64,000 bases of DNA from Alphaproteobacteria bacterium (GTDB taxonomy: Bacteria; Pseudomonadota; Alphaproteobacteria; UBA6615), in contig SHVS01000007.1 of NCBI GenBank assembly GCA_009694135.1, forward strand, positions 1-64,000. The letters are read 5' to 3'. The notes below the pieces were generated by a model, which was not told the DNA's origin, did not search any database, and saw nothing but the letters and a program-made list of their open reading frames with translations. The position numbers were made by a program, and so were the translations under genes. Position 1 is the stretch's first letter, and each line of letters begins with the position of its first letter. Shown piece after piece: positions 8,441 through 25,021 of this stretch.

Positions 8441-9154
<714 letters not shown>

Positions 9155-17355: not shown

Positions 17356-17925
17356 ATGAAAATCGACGCGAGCGCCGTCCGCCAAGGCAATATCATTGAG
17401 CTTCAGGGCAAACTTTGGCGGGTGGCCAAGGCGGAATTCGGCAAGCGTGCCCAGGCGGCGGCCGTGGTGCAGGTCGAACTGCGCAACGTCATCGACGGCT
17501 ACAAGCTCAACGAGCGCTGGCGCAGTTCCGAGCAGATCGAGGTCGTGCGCCTCGAACAGCGCGATTTTCAATACTTGTTCCGGGAAGGCGACGCCTTCAC
17601 CTTCATGGATCAGCAGACCTTCGAGCAAATCACGCTCGACCGCGAGCTGATCGGCGACGAGCCGTCGAAGTTCTTGCAGGACGGCATGATCGTCTCGATC
17701 GAATCGCATGACGAAAAGCCGATTTCGGTGCGGCTGCCGGAGAAGGTGAAGCTGCGCGTGGTCGAAGCCGACGCCACGGTGAAGGGCCAGACCGCCGCCG
17801 CGTCCTACAAGCCGGCCCTGCTCGAGAATGGGGTCAGAATCCTGGTGCCGCCGCATATCGAAGTCGGGGCGCGGATCGTGGTCTCGACCTCGGAAGGCAC
17901 CTATCTCGAGCGGGCGAAAGATTAG
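17356..17925 (+). CDS. efp: Elongation factor P with an atypical modification loop
   Basis: Relieves ribosome stalling at polyproline. The 189-aa product spans all three EF-P domains, with the C-terminal EGTYLERAKD. The loop that is normally PGKGxA, carrying the lysine modified by EpmA, reads RAQAAA (residues 31-36), so Gln33 occupies the Lys34 position; the spacing to the conserved QVEL is unchanged, so this is substitution and not misalignment. The ATG at 17356 is preferred to the TTG at 17341 as it gives the family N-terminus MKIDASAVRQG. It is followed by suhB 48 bp later. Confidence 0.95.
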   Translation: MKIDASAVRQGNIIELQGKLWRVAKAEFGKRAQAAAVVQVELRNVIDGYKLNERWRSSEQIEVVRLEQRDFQYLFREGDAFTFMDQQTFEQITLDRELIGDEPSKFLQDGMIVSIESHDEKPISVRLPEKVKLRVVEADATVKGQTAAASYKPALLENGVRILVPPHIEVGARIVVSTSEGTYLERAKD

Positions 17926-17973: not shown

Positions 17974-18780
17974 ATGACCCAATCCTCCGCGCTGATCCAT
18001 GTGATGGACCGCGCCGCCCGCAAGGCCGGGCGTGCGCTGGTGCGCGATTTTGGCGAGGTCGAGCTGCTGCAGGTGTCAAAGAAGGGCGCGGCCGATTTCG
18101 TCTCCGCCGCCGATCTGCGCGCCGAGCAGACCCTCAAGGAGGAGCTGGCGCGCGCGCGCCCCGATTTCATTTTCGAGGGCGAGGAAACCGGGGTCGGCGC
18201 CGGCTCGGGAAAAACCCGCTGGCTGGTCGATCCGCTCGACGGCACGACCAATTTCCTGCACGGCATCCCGCATTTCGCCATTTCGATCGCCGTGGTCGAG
18301 GACGGCAAGATCACCGCCGGGCTCGTGTATTCGCCGCTGCTCGACGAGGTCTATTCGGCCGCCAGCGGTGAAGGCGCCTTTGTCGGCCGCCGACGGCTGC
18401 GTGTTTCCGCGCGCAGCGCGCTGAAGGAGTCGCTGATCGCCACTGGAATCCCTTATCTCGGGCGCGGCGACCACAAGCACTATCTGTCAACGCTCGAATG
18501 CGTGATGGGCAAGGTCGCCGGCATCCGCCGCTTCGGTTCGGCGGCGCTCGACTTGGCCTATGTGGCGGCCGGGCGTTTCGACGGTTTCTGGGAATTCGGG
18601 CTGAAACCCTGGGATGTCGCCGCCGGAATCATCCTGGTGCGCGAAGCCGGGGGATTCGTGACCGACGCGCGCGGCGGCGAGGACATGCTCGGCACCGGCG
18701 ACATCGTCGCCGGCAATGGCGCCATCCATCAGGAGCTGCGCACGCTTCTCTCTCCGCTTGGAATGCCCGCCGCCGCTTAA
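17974..18780 (+). CDS. suhB: Inositol monophosphatase family protein (SuhB-like)
   Basis: A Mg-dependent phosphatase of 268 aa. Metal and substrate motifs are visible: FEGEETGVG, DPLDGTTNFLHGIPHFAIS and KPWDVAAGIILVREAGG. SuhB can also act with NusA/NusG in rRNA antitermination; this sequence does not say which role applies. It lies directly after efp, a common alphaproteobacterial pairing. Confidence 0.93.
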   Translation: MTQSSALIHVMDRAARKAGRALVRDFGEVELLQVSKKGAADFVSAADLRAEQTLKEELARARPDFIFEGEETGVGAGSGKTRWLVDPLDGTTNFLHGIPHFAISIAVVEDGKITAGLVYSPLLDEVYSAASGEGAFVGRRRLRVSARSALKESLIATGIPYLGRGDHKHYLSTLECVMGKVAGIRRFGSAALDLAYVAAGRFDGFWEFGLKPWDVAAGIILVREAGGFVTDARGGEDMLGTGDIVAGNGAIHQELRTLLSPLGMPAAA

Positions 18781-19035
18781 GCGCGTTCCGTTTGCCGGCG
18801 GCGTTTGTGCTCACGCGCGCGCTTTGCTAACCGGCCCTGAGCCAGGGGCTGGCGCAGAGCTGTAAATGGCCGGCGGAACCCTTATATGCTGTTGTGTCGC
18901 GAACCCTCGCCACGATATTTTGTGGTCGGACGAAGGGGTGTTGATTCCGGTTCCCGAGTCGTACCTGATTTCGATCGCAAACACGGGCGGCCTCGCCGCC
19001 GAATAACCTGGTTCTCTCTGGCGGATGGCAGGCGC

Positions 19036-20283
19036 GTGATACGACCGAGCAGAAGCGAGCAGCCACCGATCTCCCCGAGCGCACCGCTGCCGGCGCGCGT
19101 GGGCGCGGGGCTTGGCCTGTGCCTCTTGGCCGCGCTGACGTCGACCGCGCCTTCTGACGCAGCCGAGCGCATCCTGATCGACCCCGTCGCGCTCGAGGTC
19201 GCGCCGCAAACCCCTGCCGCGGCGCCCGCCTTGCGCCCCGTGCCGAAACGCCCGGCGCGCTCCGGCTTGAGTCCCGAGGCTCAGCTGCTGCTCAGCCTGC
19301 CCGCTGCGCGGCCAAACCTCGCCCCGGGCGCGGTCCCGGCTACGACCAAGCCGGCGGAGGCGCGGCCGGCAGCCGCGCCGGCGGCGTCTAAGCCAGTCGC
19401 TGCGTCCCCCGCCCCCGAGACTCGCGCCGCGGATGCGCGCGCTCAATCGAAAGCGAACGCTTCGCCAAGCCCGTCTGCGACGGCCACCGCGCCGGCCCCG
19501 CGCGCCGCGCCCATACCCGCGGTCGCGATCACCGCCATTCCGGCGTTAGACACGCCGGTCGCGACGCCGCCAGCACCGCCGACGGTCGCCGCCACGCCAC
19601 CGACGCCGCTCGTCGCCGCTGCGCCGACGCCTTTGGCCGTTGAGCCGCCAGCCGCACGACCAACGCCGCCGGTCACCACCGCCGCGACCGCGCCCAAACC
19701 CATGGCGGCCCCTGCTCCGGTCAAGACAGCGACGCCTGAGCCGGCCGCCAAGGCTGCCGCTCAAGCCCCGGCGCCGGTGAAACCGGCACCCTCCCCGCTG
19801 CCCGCCGCTCAAGTCGCCAAGCCGATCAAAGCCGCCGCCTCTGCTACGCCGGCGGCCACGGCGAACCTGCCGCCACAGCGGCTGGAGCTGATCGAGCCAG
19901 CGGCCGGTCCCGAACCTGCGCCCGCGGCGGCCCTAGAGCCGCAACTCGCTATGGCGCCGGCGAATTTGCCGATCGATTCGGTGCGCGTCGGTTTCGCCCG
20001 CAGCCAAGCATTACTGGACGACAAGTCGCGCGCCGTGCTGTCGGAAGTCGTCAACCGCATCAAGGATAATGGTGTCCTGCGCCTGCAGCTGGTCGCCTAC
20101 GCCCAGGCCGAAGGCGATGGGGCGAGCCAAGCGCGCCGCCTGTCGCTGACGCGTGCGCTCGCGGTGCGCTCTTATCTGATCGAGCAAGGCATACGCAGCA
20201 CACGCATGGATGTACGGGCGCTCGGGCCGTCCCCGGATGGGGGCCCCGCCGACCGTGTCGACGTATTGGTGGTGAAGCCGTAA
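19036..20283 (+). CDS. Secreted OmpA-like protein with long Ala/Pro-rich linker
   Basis: A 415-aa protein. The N-terminus (GTG start at 19036) has a basic region and a hydrophobic stretch GAGLGLCLLAALTSTAPSDA, likely a signal peptide or anchor. Residues about 55-300 are almost only Ala, Pro, Thr and Val. The last 100 residues form an OmpA/MotB-like domain (VGFARSQALLDDKSRAVLSE, then RRLSLTRALAVRSYLIEQGI), although the usual TDxxG motif is not canonical. The frame is open from 18886; the upstream part looks non-coding. It heads a three-gene set with the MotA-like and MotB/OmpA-like genes that follow. Confidence 0.75.
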   Translation: MIRPSRSEQPPISPSAPLPARVGAGLGLCLLAALTSTAPSDAAERILIDPVALEVAPQTPAAAPALRPVPKRPARSGLSPEAQLLLSLPAARPNLAPGAVPATTKPAEARPAAAPAASKPVAASPAPETRAADARAQSKANASPSPSATATAPAPRAAPIPAVAITAIPALDTPVATPPAPPTVAATPPTPLVAAAPTPLAVEPPAARPTPPVTTAATAPKPMAAPAPVKTATPEPAAKAAAQAPAPVKPAPSPLPAAQVAKPIKAAASATPAATANLPPQRLELIEPAAGPEPAPAAALEPQLAMAPANLPIDSVRVGFARSQALLDDKSRAVLSEVVNRIKDNGVLRLQLVAYAQAEGDGASQARRLSLTRALAVRSYLIEQGIRSTRMDVRALGPSPDGGPADRVDVLVVKP

Positions 20284-20335
20284 TGGCGCGCCACTTTCGT
20301 TCAAGCTTCAAGCCCGTAGCCCGGATCACCCGCCC

Positions 20336-21481
20336 ATGACGACGCCGCGTCGCTACCTGATCCGCATGTCGCTGTTCATGGCGGCCGCAGTTATTGTCGC
20401 CCTGATGTTGATCGAGCAGCTGATGTTCGCCTTCACGGTGAGCCTGTTCCTCAACTCCGTGATCCTCTCGGTGATGCTCTTCGGCGTCGGCTACATCTTC
20501 CGCCAAGTGCTGATGCTTTATCCCGAGGTGACTTGGCTCGAAGCCTATCGCGGCGATCACCCGATGCTGTCCTCGGTGCCGCGGCCAAAGCTGCTGGGCC
20601 CAATGGTGCGCATGCTGGCCGAGCGCCAGGGGCGCACGACCATTTCGGCGATGTCGATGCGTTCGATCCTCGATGGCGTCAGCGCTCGCCTGGATGAATC
20701 GCGCGACATCTCGCGCTACATGATCGGGCTGTTGATCTTCCTCGGGCTGCTCGGCACGTTCTGGGGCCTGATGGGTACGATCCAGAAGGTCGGTTCGGTG
20801 ATCGGCAACCTCAATATCACCGGCACCGACGTGCAAGCGCTGTTCGAAGAACTCAAGAAGGCTTTGCGCGAGCCGCTCGACGGCATGGGCACGGCCTTCA
20901 GCGCCTCGCTCTTCGGCCTCGCCAGCTCGCTCGTGCTTGGTTTCCTCGACCTGCAGGCCGCGCAAGCGCAGAACCGCTTCTACAACGAAGTCGAGGAATG
21001 GTTGTCGGGCAGCGCGCGGCTGACCGGCGTTTCGGCCATGGTCGAAGGCGGCGAGCAATCGGTGCCAGCCTATATTCAGGCGCTGCTTGAGACGACGGCC
21101 GACTCGCTCGATAACCTGCAGCGCACGATCGCGCGCGGCGAGTCTGCGCGATCGAGCAGCAGCCAGAGCATGATGTCACTGTCGGAGCGGTTGTCGACGC
21201 TCACCGATCAGATGCGCTCGGAGCAAAATCTGATGGTGCAGCTGGCGCAGAACCAGCTCGAGATGCGCCCAGTGCTTGCCCGCCTGGCGGAAGGCACGAG
21301 CGGCATCGACGAAGGCACGCGCAACCACATCCGCAATATGGACGTGCATTTGATGCGCCTGCTTGACGACGGGGCGCAGGGCCGCACGCAGATGGTGCAG
21401 GAGATCCGCTCCGAGATCCGCCTGCTCGCGCGCACCATTGCCGCCCTGGCCGAAGAAGGCGAGGCGGAGCCCCGCCGCTAA
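20336..21481 (+). CDS. MotA/TolQ/ExbB-like proton channel protein
   Basis: A 381-aa membrane protein. TM1 (about 10-33) and TM2 (38-60) are followed by a cytoplasmic loop, then TM3 with FLGLLGTFWGLMGTI and TM4 with GTAFSASLFGLASSLVLGF, the two conserved MotA/TolQ-family helices. After TM4 comes a long helical cytoplasmic tail (about 220-380) with coiled-coil character. It is distinct from tolQ at 8441-9154, and no flagellar genes are nearby. It pairs with the next gene as a predicted stator. Confidence 0.85.
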   Translation: MTTPRRYLIRMSLFMAAAVIVALMLIEQLMFAFTVSLFLNSVILSVMLFGVGYIFRQVLMLYPEVTWLEAYRGDHPMLSSVPRPKLLGPMVRMLAERQGRTTISAMSMRSILDGVSARLDESRDISRYMIGLLIFLGLLGTFWGLMGTIQKVGSVIGNLNITGTDVQALFEELKKALREPLDGMGTAFSASLFGLASSLVLGFLDLQAAQAQNRFYNEVEEWLSGSARLTGVSAMVEGGEQSVPAYIQALLETTADSLDNLQRTIARGESARSSSSQSMMSLSERLSTLTDQMRSEQNLMVQLAQNQLEMRPVLARLAEGTSGIDEGTRNHIRNMDVHLMRLLDDGAQGRTQMVQEIRSEIRLLARTIAALAEEGEAEPRR

Positions 21482-21551
21482 GCCGATGCTCGAGACGCCT
21501 GTTGCACCGCCCACCGCGCGCGGCCACTAGCGAAACGGAGGAGCTCGAGCC

Positions 21552-22943
21552 ATGGCCATAGGGCGCAGCCGGAATGTGCGGCAGATCGATTTCTGGCCGG
21601 GCTATGTCGATGCCCTATCCAGCCTGTCGATCTCAGTCATCTTCATGGTTCTGGTCTTCGTGTTGGCGCAGATGTTTCTGTCCAACACGCTGTCCGGCCG
21701 CAATGACGCGCTCTCGCGCCTCAACCGGCAGATCGACGAGTTGTCGAAGATGCTCGATCTCGAACGCGGAACGACCGCCGATCTGCGCCTGACCGTGACC
21801 CAATTCGCCGCCGAACTGCAGAACGCGCAGGCCGAGCGCGAAGTCCTGCGCGCCAATCTGGCCAATCTGACCGGCGAACGCGGTCGGTTGGTGAGCGAGC
21901 GCGAGGCGCTCGACCGCAAGCTGGCGCAGGTCGAGGCGCAGCTCACCGCGGCCAATGCCGACGCCGCGCGGGCGCGCGGGCAAGCCGAGGACGCAACCAA
22001 GCTGGTCGCCGCCGACCGCGAAAATGTCACGCTGCAATTGGCGCAGATCGAAAGCCTGAACCGCGACCTCGCCGCGCTCAGGACCGTGCGCGCCGAGCTG
22101 GAGGCGCGGGTGGCGGAGTTGGCCAAGATCGATGCCGAGCGCCTGGCGCTGCGCGATCGCACCAAGGAACTCGAAGCGCGGATCGCGACCGATGCCGAAC
22201 GCACCGCCCTCGCCCAGCAAGACCTGGCCGCGCGCGACGTGCGGCTGGCAGAGCTCTTGGCGCAGGTCGACGCCACCAAGCTTGCACTCGGCAATGAGCA
22301 GCAAGTCTCGACCGAGGCGCAGCGGCAACTGGCGCTGCTGAATGCGCAGCTGAATGAGTTGCGCCGCCAGATGGCTGCGCTCAACGAGGCGCTGCAGGCC
22401 CAGGAAGCAAAAAATGTTGCGGCCGATGTGCAGATCGCCGACCTCGGCCAGCGGCTCAACCTCGCGCTTGCCACGCGCGTGCAGGATCTGACCCGCTATC
22501 GGTCGGAATTCTTCGGCCGGCTGCGCGAAGTGCTCGGCGACCGGCAAGACGTGCGCGTCGTCGGCGACCGCTTCGTCTTTCAGTCGGAAGTGCTGTTCCA
22601 GAGCGCACAGGCTACGATCGAGGATGGCGGCGAGCAATCGCTGCTCACCCTCGCCAATGCGGTGAAGGAAATCGCGGCCTCGATCCCGAAAGACATCGAC
22701 TGGGTGATCCGCGTCGACGGCCACACCGATCTGCGCCCGATCGCGACGCCGCAGTTCCCGTCCAACTGGGAGCTGTCGAGCGCGCGCGCGATCTCCGTGG
22801 TGCGCTTTCTCATTGAGCAAGGGATCCCGGCCGAACGCCTGGTCGCCGCCGGCTTCGGCGAGTTCCGCCCGCTCGACCCGGCGCGCACCGACGACGCCTT
22901 CCGCCGCAACCGCCGCATCGAGTTCAAGCTGACCGAGCGGTGA
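21552..22943 (+). CDS. MotB-like protein: TM helix, coiled coil and OmpA domain
   Basis: A 463-aa partner of the MotA-like protein. It has a single TM near residues 22-45 preceded by FWPGYVDALSS, whose Asp20 sits where MotB has its proton-carrying Asp. A very long coiled coil (about 50-310, rich in Ala/Glu/Arg/Gln heptads) leads to a C-terminal OmpA domain with RVDGHTDLRPI and NWELSSARAISVVRFL for peptidoglycan binding. A GGAGGAG lies upstream of the ATG. The coiled coil is much longer than in MotB or TolR. Confidence 0.85.
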   Translation: MAIGRSRNVRQIDFWPGYVDALSSLSISVIFMVLVFVLAQMFLSNTLSGRNDALSRLNRQIDELSKMLDLERGTTADLRLTVTQFAAELQNAQAEREVLRANLANLTGERGRLVSEREALDRKLAQVEAQLTAANADAARARGQAEDATKLVAADRENVTLQLAQIESLNRDLAALRTVRAELEARVAELAKIDAERLALRDRTKELEARIATDAERTALAQQDLAARDVRLAELLAQVDATKLALGNEQQVSTEAQRQLALLNAQLNELRRQMAALNEALQAQEAKNVAADVQIADLGQRLNLALATRVQDLTRYRSEFFGRLREVLGDRQDVRVVGDRFVFQSEVLFQSAQATIEDGGEQSLLTLANAVKEIAASIPKDIDWVIRVDGHTDLRPIATPQFPSNWELSSARAISVVRFLIEQGIPAERLVAAGFGEFRPLDPARTDDAFRRNRRIEFKLTER

Positions 22944-22952
22944 GCTTTCCAG

Positions 22953-24937
22953 CTACCCCTGCGTCAGCCCGGCCAGCGCGGCGAGCGCAAGAATGGCGAG
23001 CAGCCAGCCCAAAAGCTGATGCAGGCGGAAATAGGCCCGGCCGAACCGGCCGAGGTCGCGGGCGATGACTGCGCCATGTTCGCGGTCGAACTCGATCAAC
23101 GGCAGAAGGTGATCGAGGCTCGCGAGCAACATCCAGCGCATCCCGCGCGGCCGGGTCGCCGGGACACGCCACAGGATGAAGGCGCCAAGCCCGGTCAGCG
23201 CCAATGCCCAGCCGAGTGCGCGCAGGGTCTTGCCTCCCAGCCCATAGCCGACGGTCATTTTAAGCAGCGTGGCCGCGGCATAAGTGCCGAGCGCGCCGCT
23301 GGCCCAAGCTTCCGCGCGGGCGCGTTCCTTGCCGGCGTAAAGCACCGAGCGCGCATCCCCATCGGCGCCCGATACGCGCAACGCCGTCGCCAGCTGCTGA
23401 TAGGGGTCATCGAGCGCAAGCCAGGCGAGCCGGCCGGCGAGCGTCGGCGGAGCCTCGCCCGGCATGGCATCGGCCAAGCGGCGATAGGCGAAGCCGGCCA
23501 GGTCCACGCCACCCGCGGGAGGCCAAATGGCTCGCCGCGCGACGTTTCCATCGGCGACACCCGTGTCGAAGGGCCAAAGAAAGGCCTCGGCCTGGGTGCG
23601 GAGAAGCGTAAGGCGCGCGCCGGCGCCCCAAGTGGGAGAATTCCCGTTGGAGCCAAAGCTCAATTCACCACCGATACGCGTGTCACTTAAATCGAGCCCG
23701 GCCAGCCGCGCGCCGGATAGGTCGAGCGTTTGCCCGATGCTGGCGCCGGTCAGCTCGGCCCGCTGGGAAAAGCTCGCCCGGCGCAACAGCCACGACCCGG
23801 TCACGTCGAGCCCCTCGGTTACCAGCGGCCCGCCGAAGCCTGCCTCGGTCGCGTCGATCTGCCCGCGGACGCGCGCGCCGCGCAACGTGAGCCGCCCATT
23901 GACGTGCGTTCCGTTCGCCAGCGAGAGATCATGCGCGATCTCAACATTGGCGAGATTGGCGGCATCGGCCAGCGTCGTACGCTCGAACAAAGCGCCGCCG
24001 CCGATGCGCGCGCCATCGAGACTGAGCGCGCCATCGATGCGCGCCGCGCGCAGCGTGAGCCGGCCGGCGATCTCCGCCCCGGTGAGATCGAGCGCGCCGC
24101 CGACCGTCGCCGCTTCAAGAGCAAGTTCGCCGATCCTGGCGCAGGCCAGCGCCAACGCGCCCGCGATGCGCGTGTCGGCGACCAAGAGCTGGCCATCGAC
24201 GCGCAGGCGAGAGAGTGCGGCCGGGCGCGCCAAAACCGAACCCTTGATCGACAAATAGGCCTGGAAACGAGCATCCGACAGGTCCAGCGCGCCGTCGATG
24301 CGGCAGGATTCAAGGGCCAGCGGGGCAAGCGCCAGACCGCCCTTGAGATCCACCGCCTCGGCCAACCAGCAGCCGGCGATGCGCGCGCCCGCCTGCGGCA
24401 GGAGCGAGCGATACGGCTCGGAATACAGGACGGTCGGCAGGAAGCGCGGCGAGAGTAGTCGCGTCTTGTCCCAAACTCCGGCCTCGCGCGGATTGCGCCG
24501 CGGCGCGACGGCAGGGGCAGCGGTGACAGCGGCTGGGGCGGCGGGGGCTGGGGCGGCGGGGGCTGCGGCCGCAGCGGCGGGGGCCGCAGCGGCTGGAGCG
24601 GCTGCCTCGATGGCAGCGGCGGCGGCATCACGCTTGTCGAAATCAGCCACCTCGCCGGCGCACAGGCGCTGCCAAACCCAGCGCTCATTATCGCCCCATT
24701 CGGGATCGTCGAGCTCGGCGCAATACCGCAGAGCCGGTGCCGCGCTTGGCGCGGATTGCTGAGCGGGGGGGACACTTGTGGTGCTGGCGAAACCGCTGGC
24801 GTGGCCGGGGCAGCGCGGGGCACGGCCTGGGCCGGAGGCGTCGCGGGCGTAGGCCGCGAGCGTGGCGCCGGCTGCGCCAGAACCTCCACCGCGATCAGGA
24901 GCAGCGCCACCGTAACGCCGCCCACGCATGGCCCCAT
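22953..24937 (-). CDS. Beta-solenoid membrane protein, interrupted by a frameshift in a C7 tract
   Basis: Two overlapping frames encode one protein. From ATG at 24937 a signal peptide (MGPCVGGVTVALLLIAVEVL) and Pro-rich region run to a run of seven C (24765-24771); the body continues in another frame (QSAPSAAPALRYCAELDD). One extra C would join them into 661 aa. The body has a proline/alanine linker, then about a dozen imperfect 20-22-residue repeats of the form GALDLSGARIxGxLxL, typical of a right-handed beta-helix, and two C-terminal TM helices (about 570-590 and 635-660). The family is not one I can name; pentapeptide-repeat or bactofilin-like comparisons are loose. Confidence 0.7.
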
Positions 24938-25021
24938 GCCTCTCGCCCCGACCGCGGGCAGACACTATGCGAGGGTGGGGCGCGACGCCAGACCCAGGGC
25001 TATCGCTTGGCTGCGCCCGCC

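Follow-up and report, generated by a model that had tools for sequence, protein, structure and literature searches.

Two adjacent genes, here called A and B, are described in a 64,000-nucleotide stretch of alphaproteobacterial DNA (the window: positions 1 to 64,000, forward strand, of contig SHVS01000007.1, assembly GCA_009694135.1, GTDB lineage UBA6615). A encodes a channel protein of the MotA/TolQ/ExbB/ZorA superfamily and B a membrane-anchored partner with a wall-binding domain; together they are probably the subunits of a class-wide, as yet uncharacterised stator motor of the 5:2 type, driven by ions. The main new result is the heptad periodicity of the B shaft: the distance from the aspartate in its membrane helix to its OmpA domain varies mostly in steps of seven residues. 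The two genes and their parts lie in the window as follows:

20336..21481, plus strand: A subunit, MotA/TolQ/ExbB/ZorA-superfamily channel protein, 381 aa (PF01618; AlphaFold2 model, pLDDT 83.2)
20756..20758, plus strand: Thr141 of A, in LLGTFWG (invariant; alignment with relatives)
20906..20908, plus strand: Ser191 of A (invariant; alignment with relatives)
21068..21463, plus strand: C-terminal helical tail of A, residues 245-376, predicted cytoplasmic (AlphaFold2 helices)
21552..22943, plus strand: B subunit, PRK09039 family, 463 aa (NF006543)
21609..21611, plus strand: Asp20 of B, in WPGYVDAL, position of the MotB/ZorB ion-binding Asp (alignment)
21672..22541, plus strand: predicted coiled-coil shaft of B, proline-poor, about residues 41-330 (heptad lengths, a/d phase)
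22563..22940, plus strand: OmpA/MotB-type peptidoglycan-binding domain of B (PF00691; D393 and R412 kept)

The B subunit consists of one membrane helix, a predicted coiled-coil shaft and an OmpA domain of the peptidoglycan-binding type (PF00691, E 7.8e-16), much as the first-pass annotation of this DNA had described it, including the aspartate at the proton position. This residue, Asp20, is the same in all 43 aligned orthologues; the ligand residues D393 and R412 of the OmpA domain are likewise invariant in the aligned orthologues, D393 being the position that is degenerate in the secreted protein encoded upstream (see below). Among solved sequences, the closest to this domain are MotS, MotB and PomB, and no Pfam match to the MotB plug domain (PF13677) was found in B. 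The protein scores well above the curated cut-off of NCBIfam PRK09039 (NF006543; 442 against 305 bits), a family that carries no assigned function or partner in NCBIfam and on which the literature searched held nothing useful; its partnership with A and its quantised shaft are described here. According to a published survey, homology to OmpA is not discernible in B subunits outside flagellar motors (PMC12505986); the A/B family constitutes a widespread counter-example.

For 95 non-redundant B proteins, shaft length was taken as the distance between the membrane Asp and the G of GDRF, an invariant motif of the OmpA domain. The distance spans 148-770 residues, and 66 of the 95 lengths are exact multiples of seven, where 13.6 would be expected (p 4e-34). 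Because related genomes are not fully independent, each distinct length was also counted only once, and 32 of 57 are then multiples of seven (p 2e-13). Periods of 5, 6, 8, 10, 11 and 13 gave no signal in the same lengths and a period of 9 reached only p 0.03. Lengths that are not multiples of seven mainly leave a remainder of +4 (13 proteins) or +3 (8 proteins), which are the classic coiled-coil stutter and stammer. Counting from the Asp, the hydrophobic residues fall at phases 6 and 2 in every one of the 66 heptad-length proteins, and over the first 56 residues of the coil the same holds for 93 of the 95; at the other end, over the last 56 residues, the hydrophobic phase is locked to GDRF in 87 of the 95. 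Proline is absent from 92% of the coils. In the window, the B protein itself has 318 residues between Asp20 and GDRF (remainder 3), with the phase kept in the first half of the coil and less clear after it.

Twenty-seven flagellar MotB proteins from this class served as a control; their remainders modulo seven are uniform (p 0.94) and their linker has 6% proline. Heptad lengths and fixed phase, together with this negative control, lead to the reading of B as one continuous parallel coiled coil that extends between the ion-binding residue and the wall clamp, and B is thus best read, on its sequence, as a single shaft locked to the Asp. Its register, with a at Asp-1 and d at Asp+2, is the one published for a structural model of flagellar MotB, where residues 31 and 34 around D32 take the a and d positions (PMC10659934). 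Single-heptad steps in length would favour a parallel coil over a hairpin. Duplication of repeat units could also favour such steps; a structural constraint is preferred because the +4 and +3 leftovers are enriched and the phase is fixed at both ends. The heptad-quantised shaft is a natural experiment on the coupling of an ion motor to the cell wall, and it makes the question of a rigid versus a flexible tether directly testable in Sinorhizobium or Komagataeibacter: an insertion of 7 residues should be tolerated, one of 3 or 4 partly, and one of 1, 2, 5 or 6 not at all.

Some B proteins (loci L154, L171, L199 and L196) carry 631-770 residues between the Asp and the OmpA domain in a proline-free coil that, if straight, would be far longer than a periplasm. 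A role of the shaft as a fixed ruler of the periplasm was rejected, as its length varies more than fivefold. The same variation bears on the possibility that A/B is a mechanosensor, in which B would be a taut peptidoglycan tether and tension along the shaft would gate an ion leak or twist the tail of A, thereby reporting wall strain to the cytoplasm. A rigid, phase-locked shaft suits the transmission of force in either case, a signal could travel through the cytoplasmic tail of A, and engagement with the wall has been proposed as the trigger of ZorAB (PMC11890865); a calibrated strain gauge is nevertheless difficult to reconcile with a more than fivefold range of lengths, and the invariant Asp of B and Thr/Ser of A suggest a motor-like coupling to ions, so that we consider a sensor of this kind unlikely.

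The A subunit matches Pfam MotA_ExbB (PF01618) with 25.8 bits, above the cut-off of 22.9, and its AlphaFold2 model displays four long membrane helices as a core, followed by tail helices at residues 245-320 and 326-376; the earlier description of a MotA/TolQ-family channel with a long helical tail is borne out. Across orthologues, the tail after L223 spans 11-229 residues; tail length and B coil length correlate with rho 0.47, a value uncorrected for relatedness and not used here. All 50 Foldseek hits listed for the model are ExbB, TolQ or ZorA, at probabilities of 0.92-1.00, and in profile comparisons ZorA and TolQ are about equally near to A, with MotA farther away. In a tree whose resolution is limited by long branches, A forms a clade of its own (support 94/76) that joins ZorA weakly (87/62) and is split from TolQ/ExbB (99/97) and from MotA (100/100). 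Thr141 and Ser191 are invariant in 61 of 61 sequences; Thr141 aligns with the pore threonine of TolQ, ExbB and ZorA, and Ser191 with a serine of ZorA and a threonine of ExbB and TolQ that belong to the second pore helix. Against the sequences of solved structures, A as a single sequence found no match, and a profile search returned only coiled-coil noise. A further MotA_ExbB-family protein, the third in the window genome (C24:12287-12472; L002 1402-2184, minus strand; 260 aa), sits on a long branch of the tree and has no NCBIfam family match at the threshold used.

That A is a paralogue of TolQ or ExbB was rejected, as it lies outside their clade and has no tolQ or exbB equivalog match in NCBIfam. 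The proximity to ZorA raises the question as to whether A/B is an anti-phage defence module of the Zorya type. In PADLOC, the ZorA profile does match A (E 3e-15) and the ZorB profile B (E 2e-20), and ZorA is the clade nearest to A; the NCBIfam ZorA score, however, is 18.8 bits, far below the cut-off of 100, none of the effectors ZorC, ZorD, ZorE and ZorF/G, nor any other Zorya gene, was found among the five neighbours scanned, and the broad, syntenic, core-genome distribution of A/B is unlike that of patchy defence systems. A defence function of this type is very improbable.

This distribution was traced in 142 sampled alphaproteobacterial genomes, the searches covering named collections: 91 have both genes, 46 have neither, 4 have only A and 1 has only B, far beyond chance (Fisher p 2e-31). 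The neighbourhood and phyletic profiling proposed with the first-pass annotation thus yields a class-wide pair. Co-inheritance extends to genomes in which the two genes have come apart, since both are kept about 186 kb from each other on one contig of genome G141 and both are retained on separate contigs in several others. Beyond the Alphaproteobacteria strong matches are rare: a phylum-wide sample yielded 5, to which come named hits in gammaproteobacteria such as Aquimonas voraii and Dokdonella; in these two (L046 and L029, respectively) A/B stands without efp and suhB alongside, which suggests horizontal transfer. Two records call for caution as to their labels: a contig titled Rhodanobacteraceae (L024, QIMA01000227.1) carries an A gene 59% identical to that of the window and is possibly mis-binned, and a 3.7 Mb record titled S. 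meliloti pSymB (L138, CP090106.1) holds chromosomal-looking housekeeping genes, so its replicon title may be wrong.

Presence of the pair shows no association with flagella: 53 of the A/B genomes have FliG and 38 do not (p 0.86). Since A/B occurs in genomes without FliG, cells without flagella also seem to keep the machine. In the window genome (G000, an assembly that is 79% complete), FliG, MotA1 and the MotB plug were not found, and in a complete genome of the same family (G102) FliG and the plug were not found either, in agreement with the earlier statement that flagellar genes are missing. A flagellar MotAB copy or relic powering some motility apparatus would account for an OmpA domain closest to MotB/MotS and for the frequent annotation of the family as MotA/MotB (PMC6570709). 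With no Pfam match to the plug in B, a 100/100 branch between A and MotA, linker statistics completely different from those of MotB and an occurrence independent of FliG, such an origin is hardly credible, and the flagellar relic was rejected.

The surroundings of the pair in the window comprise the following genes:

17356..17925, plus strand: efp, elongation factor P, upstream neighbour given for context (TIGR00038, 209.5 bits against a cut-off of 185.8)
17974..18780, plus strand: suhB-like inositol monophosphatase, upstream neighbour given for context (PRK10757 is the best NCBIfam match, E 5.6e-67, below its cut-off)
19036..20283, plus strand: secreted OmpA-like protein (PF00691, E 4e-10)
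19960..20280, plus strand: OmpA-like domain of the secreted protein (AlphaFold2 pLDDT 89.6; Foldseek best E 5.7e-9)
8462..9109, minus strand: tolQ of the genuine Tol-Pal system, given for context (TIGR02796, 261.6 bits against a cut-off of 221), 11.9 kb away

The order efp-suhB-(secreted)-A-B recurs across the Alphaproteobacteria. Among 60 related loci, B was recognised in all 60, A in 56, suhB in 42 and efp in 39; thiE was seen in 27, an ABC exporter related to MsbA in 26 and the gene for the secreted protein in 23. A named record of Sinorhizobium meliloti reads thiE, a sel1-repeat gene, inositol monophosphatase, A, B and an ABC transporter; the secreted gene was not found between phosphatase and A in this one record, whose gene table may be incomplete. 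The true tolQ and the A gene lie 8-31 kb apart in 36 of the 41 genomes that have both on one contig, a linkage unusually durable over alphaproteobacterial families; it fits a role in the envelope, yet may only mirror an old gene order. Between B and the conserved ABC exporter, the window also encodes (22953-24965, minus strand) a 670-aa protein with pentapeptide-like repeats and hydrophobic C-terminal segments, for which neither NCBIfam nor PADLOC gave a match at the thresholds used.

The secreted protein begins with a signal-peptide-like segment, continues through a linker rich in Ala and Pro and ends in an OmpA domain, predicted by AlphaFold2 to adopt the OmpA-C fold and matched by Foldseek to OmpA-like domains; its start at 19036 is a GTG, and the open frame reaches back to an ATG at 18886 that is a possible earlier start. 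The mature N-termini of these proteins share a motif like ETVxIGGSGxPSVEV(D/N)LxxL, somewhat reminiscent of a TonB box (about 19165-19195 in the window; also L055, L068, L070, L075, L077 and others). Orthologues were seen in 27 loci. In OmpA and Pal, the ligand roles of an Asp and an Arg are established; the Arg is kept in 27 of 27 orthologues and the diaminopimelate-binding Asp in only 3 of 27. As the ligand Asp is usually missing, the protein is a poor candidate for a peptidoglycan anchor. Moreover, 20 genomes without A/B still hold the gene (e.g., L087-L092), directly after efp-suhB in most of those inspected; in L087 and L088 the gene that follows, on the other strand, resembles the ABC exporter of the window, as read from its sequence. 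The secreted protein is therefore a neighbour with a role of its own and not an obligate subunit. The three plus-strand genes after efp-suhB, the secreted product with its Ala/Pro linker and the separately encoded Tol-Pal system had all been recognised correctly in the first-pass annotation; of the stator-like triad proposed there, the A/B pair stands, co-inherited even when unlinked, and the strict three-gene machine was rejected, as the secreted gene occurs in genomes lacking A/B.

These data also bear on a second Tol/Ton-like energiser, in which A/B would use the ion gradient to pull on an outer-membrane or periplasmic partner and the secreted protein would serve as a Pal- or TolA-like element. 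In many genomes the secreted gene separates suhB from A, tol-pal is linked to the locus, and ExbB and TolQ are among the Foldseek hits of A. Against this, the putative partner persists in the 20 genomes without A/B, is missing from that position in S. meliloti and usually has an OmpA domain without the ligand Asp, A falls outside the TolQ/ExbB clade, and B, in contrast to the short TolR/ExbD type, has a complete OmpA domain that keeps its ligand residues. We regard a Tol/Ton-like energiser as quite unlikely.

A stator motor remains the reading that we favour. By homology, five A subunits would surround a B dimer as a ring, and the path of the ions would run between Asp20 of B and the ring of Thr141/Ser191 of A. 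The OmpA domain of B would clamp peptidoglycan and the shaft would hold the B axle against rotation, so that the flow of ions would turn the A ring along with its helical tail in the cytoplasm, a rotation of the kind proposed for ZorAB (PMC11890865). The turning or twisting tail may then drive, or signal to, a cytoplasmic partner. Such an ion-driven motor, with no assigned job, would have been retained across most of a major bacterial class, in cells with flagella or without.

As for its job, the best lead comes from Komagataeibacter hansenii, which has no flagella and carries adjacent motA (348 aa) and motB (321 aa) genes for a four-helix channel and an OmpA partner; its MotB has full-length matches of 46-48% to proteins of Rhizobium, Rhodospirillum and Magnetospirillum, GFP fusions of the two proteins are polar, and their overexpression leads to longer, chained cells with regions indicative of septa (PMC6570709). 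Judged from the descriptions in that paper, namely size, topology, adjacency and the MotB matches, these genes are probably orthologous to A/B. A/B groups with neither flagellar MotAB nor Tol, no clear orthology to either having emerged and A keeping its own clade; the earlier label "uncharacterised" is to be qualified by these probable orthologues. With less confidence than the motor itself, a role in envelope growth or division may be proposed, probably at poles or septa. The Rgs growth-zone proteins of PMC7327166, looked up by no more than a few words, gave no match.

Several observations weigh against a motor with this role. The A tail, which would carry the output, is nearly missing in some orthologues (11-15 residues), and the Foldseek E-values for A are 3e-3 at best and range to 5e-2, though the probability reaches 1.00. 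A straight coil would measure roughly 19 to 110 nm (0.15 nm per residue); as the long forms exceed the usual periplasm, a shaft that simply stands upright is not possible in all species. The pair is not universally needed, since about one third of the sampled genomes lack it. Lastly, the K. hansenii orthology is drawn from description and the overexpression phenotypes are indirect.

Among known systems, ZorAB offers a close parallel: a channel protein with a long C-terminal tail, a partner with a membrane Asp and an OmpA-type domain, components that come as a pair, and a GMxTAFxxSLxGL motif that ZorA and A have in common. For ZorAB, the 5:2 complex, its binding to peptidoglycan, the flow of ions and the bundling of the tail are all important, and it provides a precedent for the tail, the Asp/Ser/Thr ring and the peptidoglycan clamp (PMC11890865). 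A/B differs in being a broadly distributed, syntenic part of the core genome, in a B shaft of 148-770 residues and in having no defence effectors found nearby. It is possible, and we put it forward only tentatively, that A/B is an ancestral alphaproteobacterial housekeeping motor whose torsionally stiff coiled-coil axle, phase-locked from the Asp to the wall clamp, would be a true torque shaft, with ZorAB possibly a relative recruited to defence.

TolQR and ExbBD share with A/B the fold of the A subunit and the positions of the pore threonines; by comparison, A has four predicted membrane-spanning helices plus a tail, B ends in a canonical OmpA domain, and the genuine TolQ is separately encoded in the same window. 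The flagellar stators MotAB and PomAB have in common with A/B the Asp of the membrane helix, the coiled-coil register around it (PMC10659934) and an OmpA peptidoglycan-binding domain, and it is after flagellar proteins that the K. hansenii genes were named and with them that they were compared (PMC6570709). A/B nevertheless needs no flagellum, its B subunit is without a plug match and its A subunit is far from MotA; the predicted coil of B is continuous and proline-poor, whereas the linker of MotB contains proline and displays no heptad signal.

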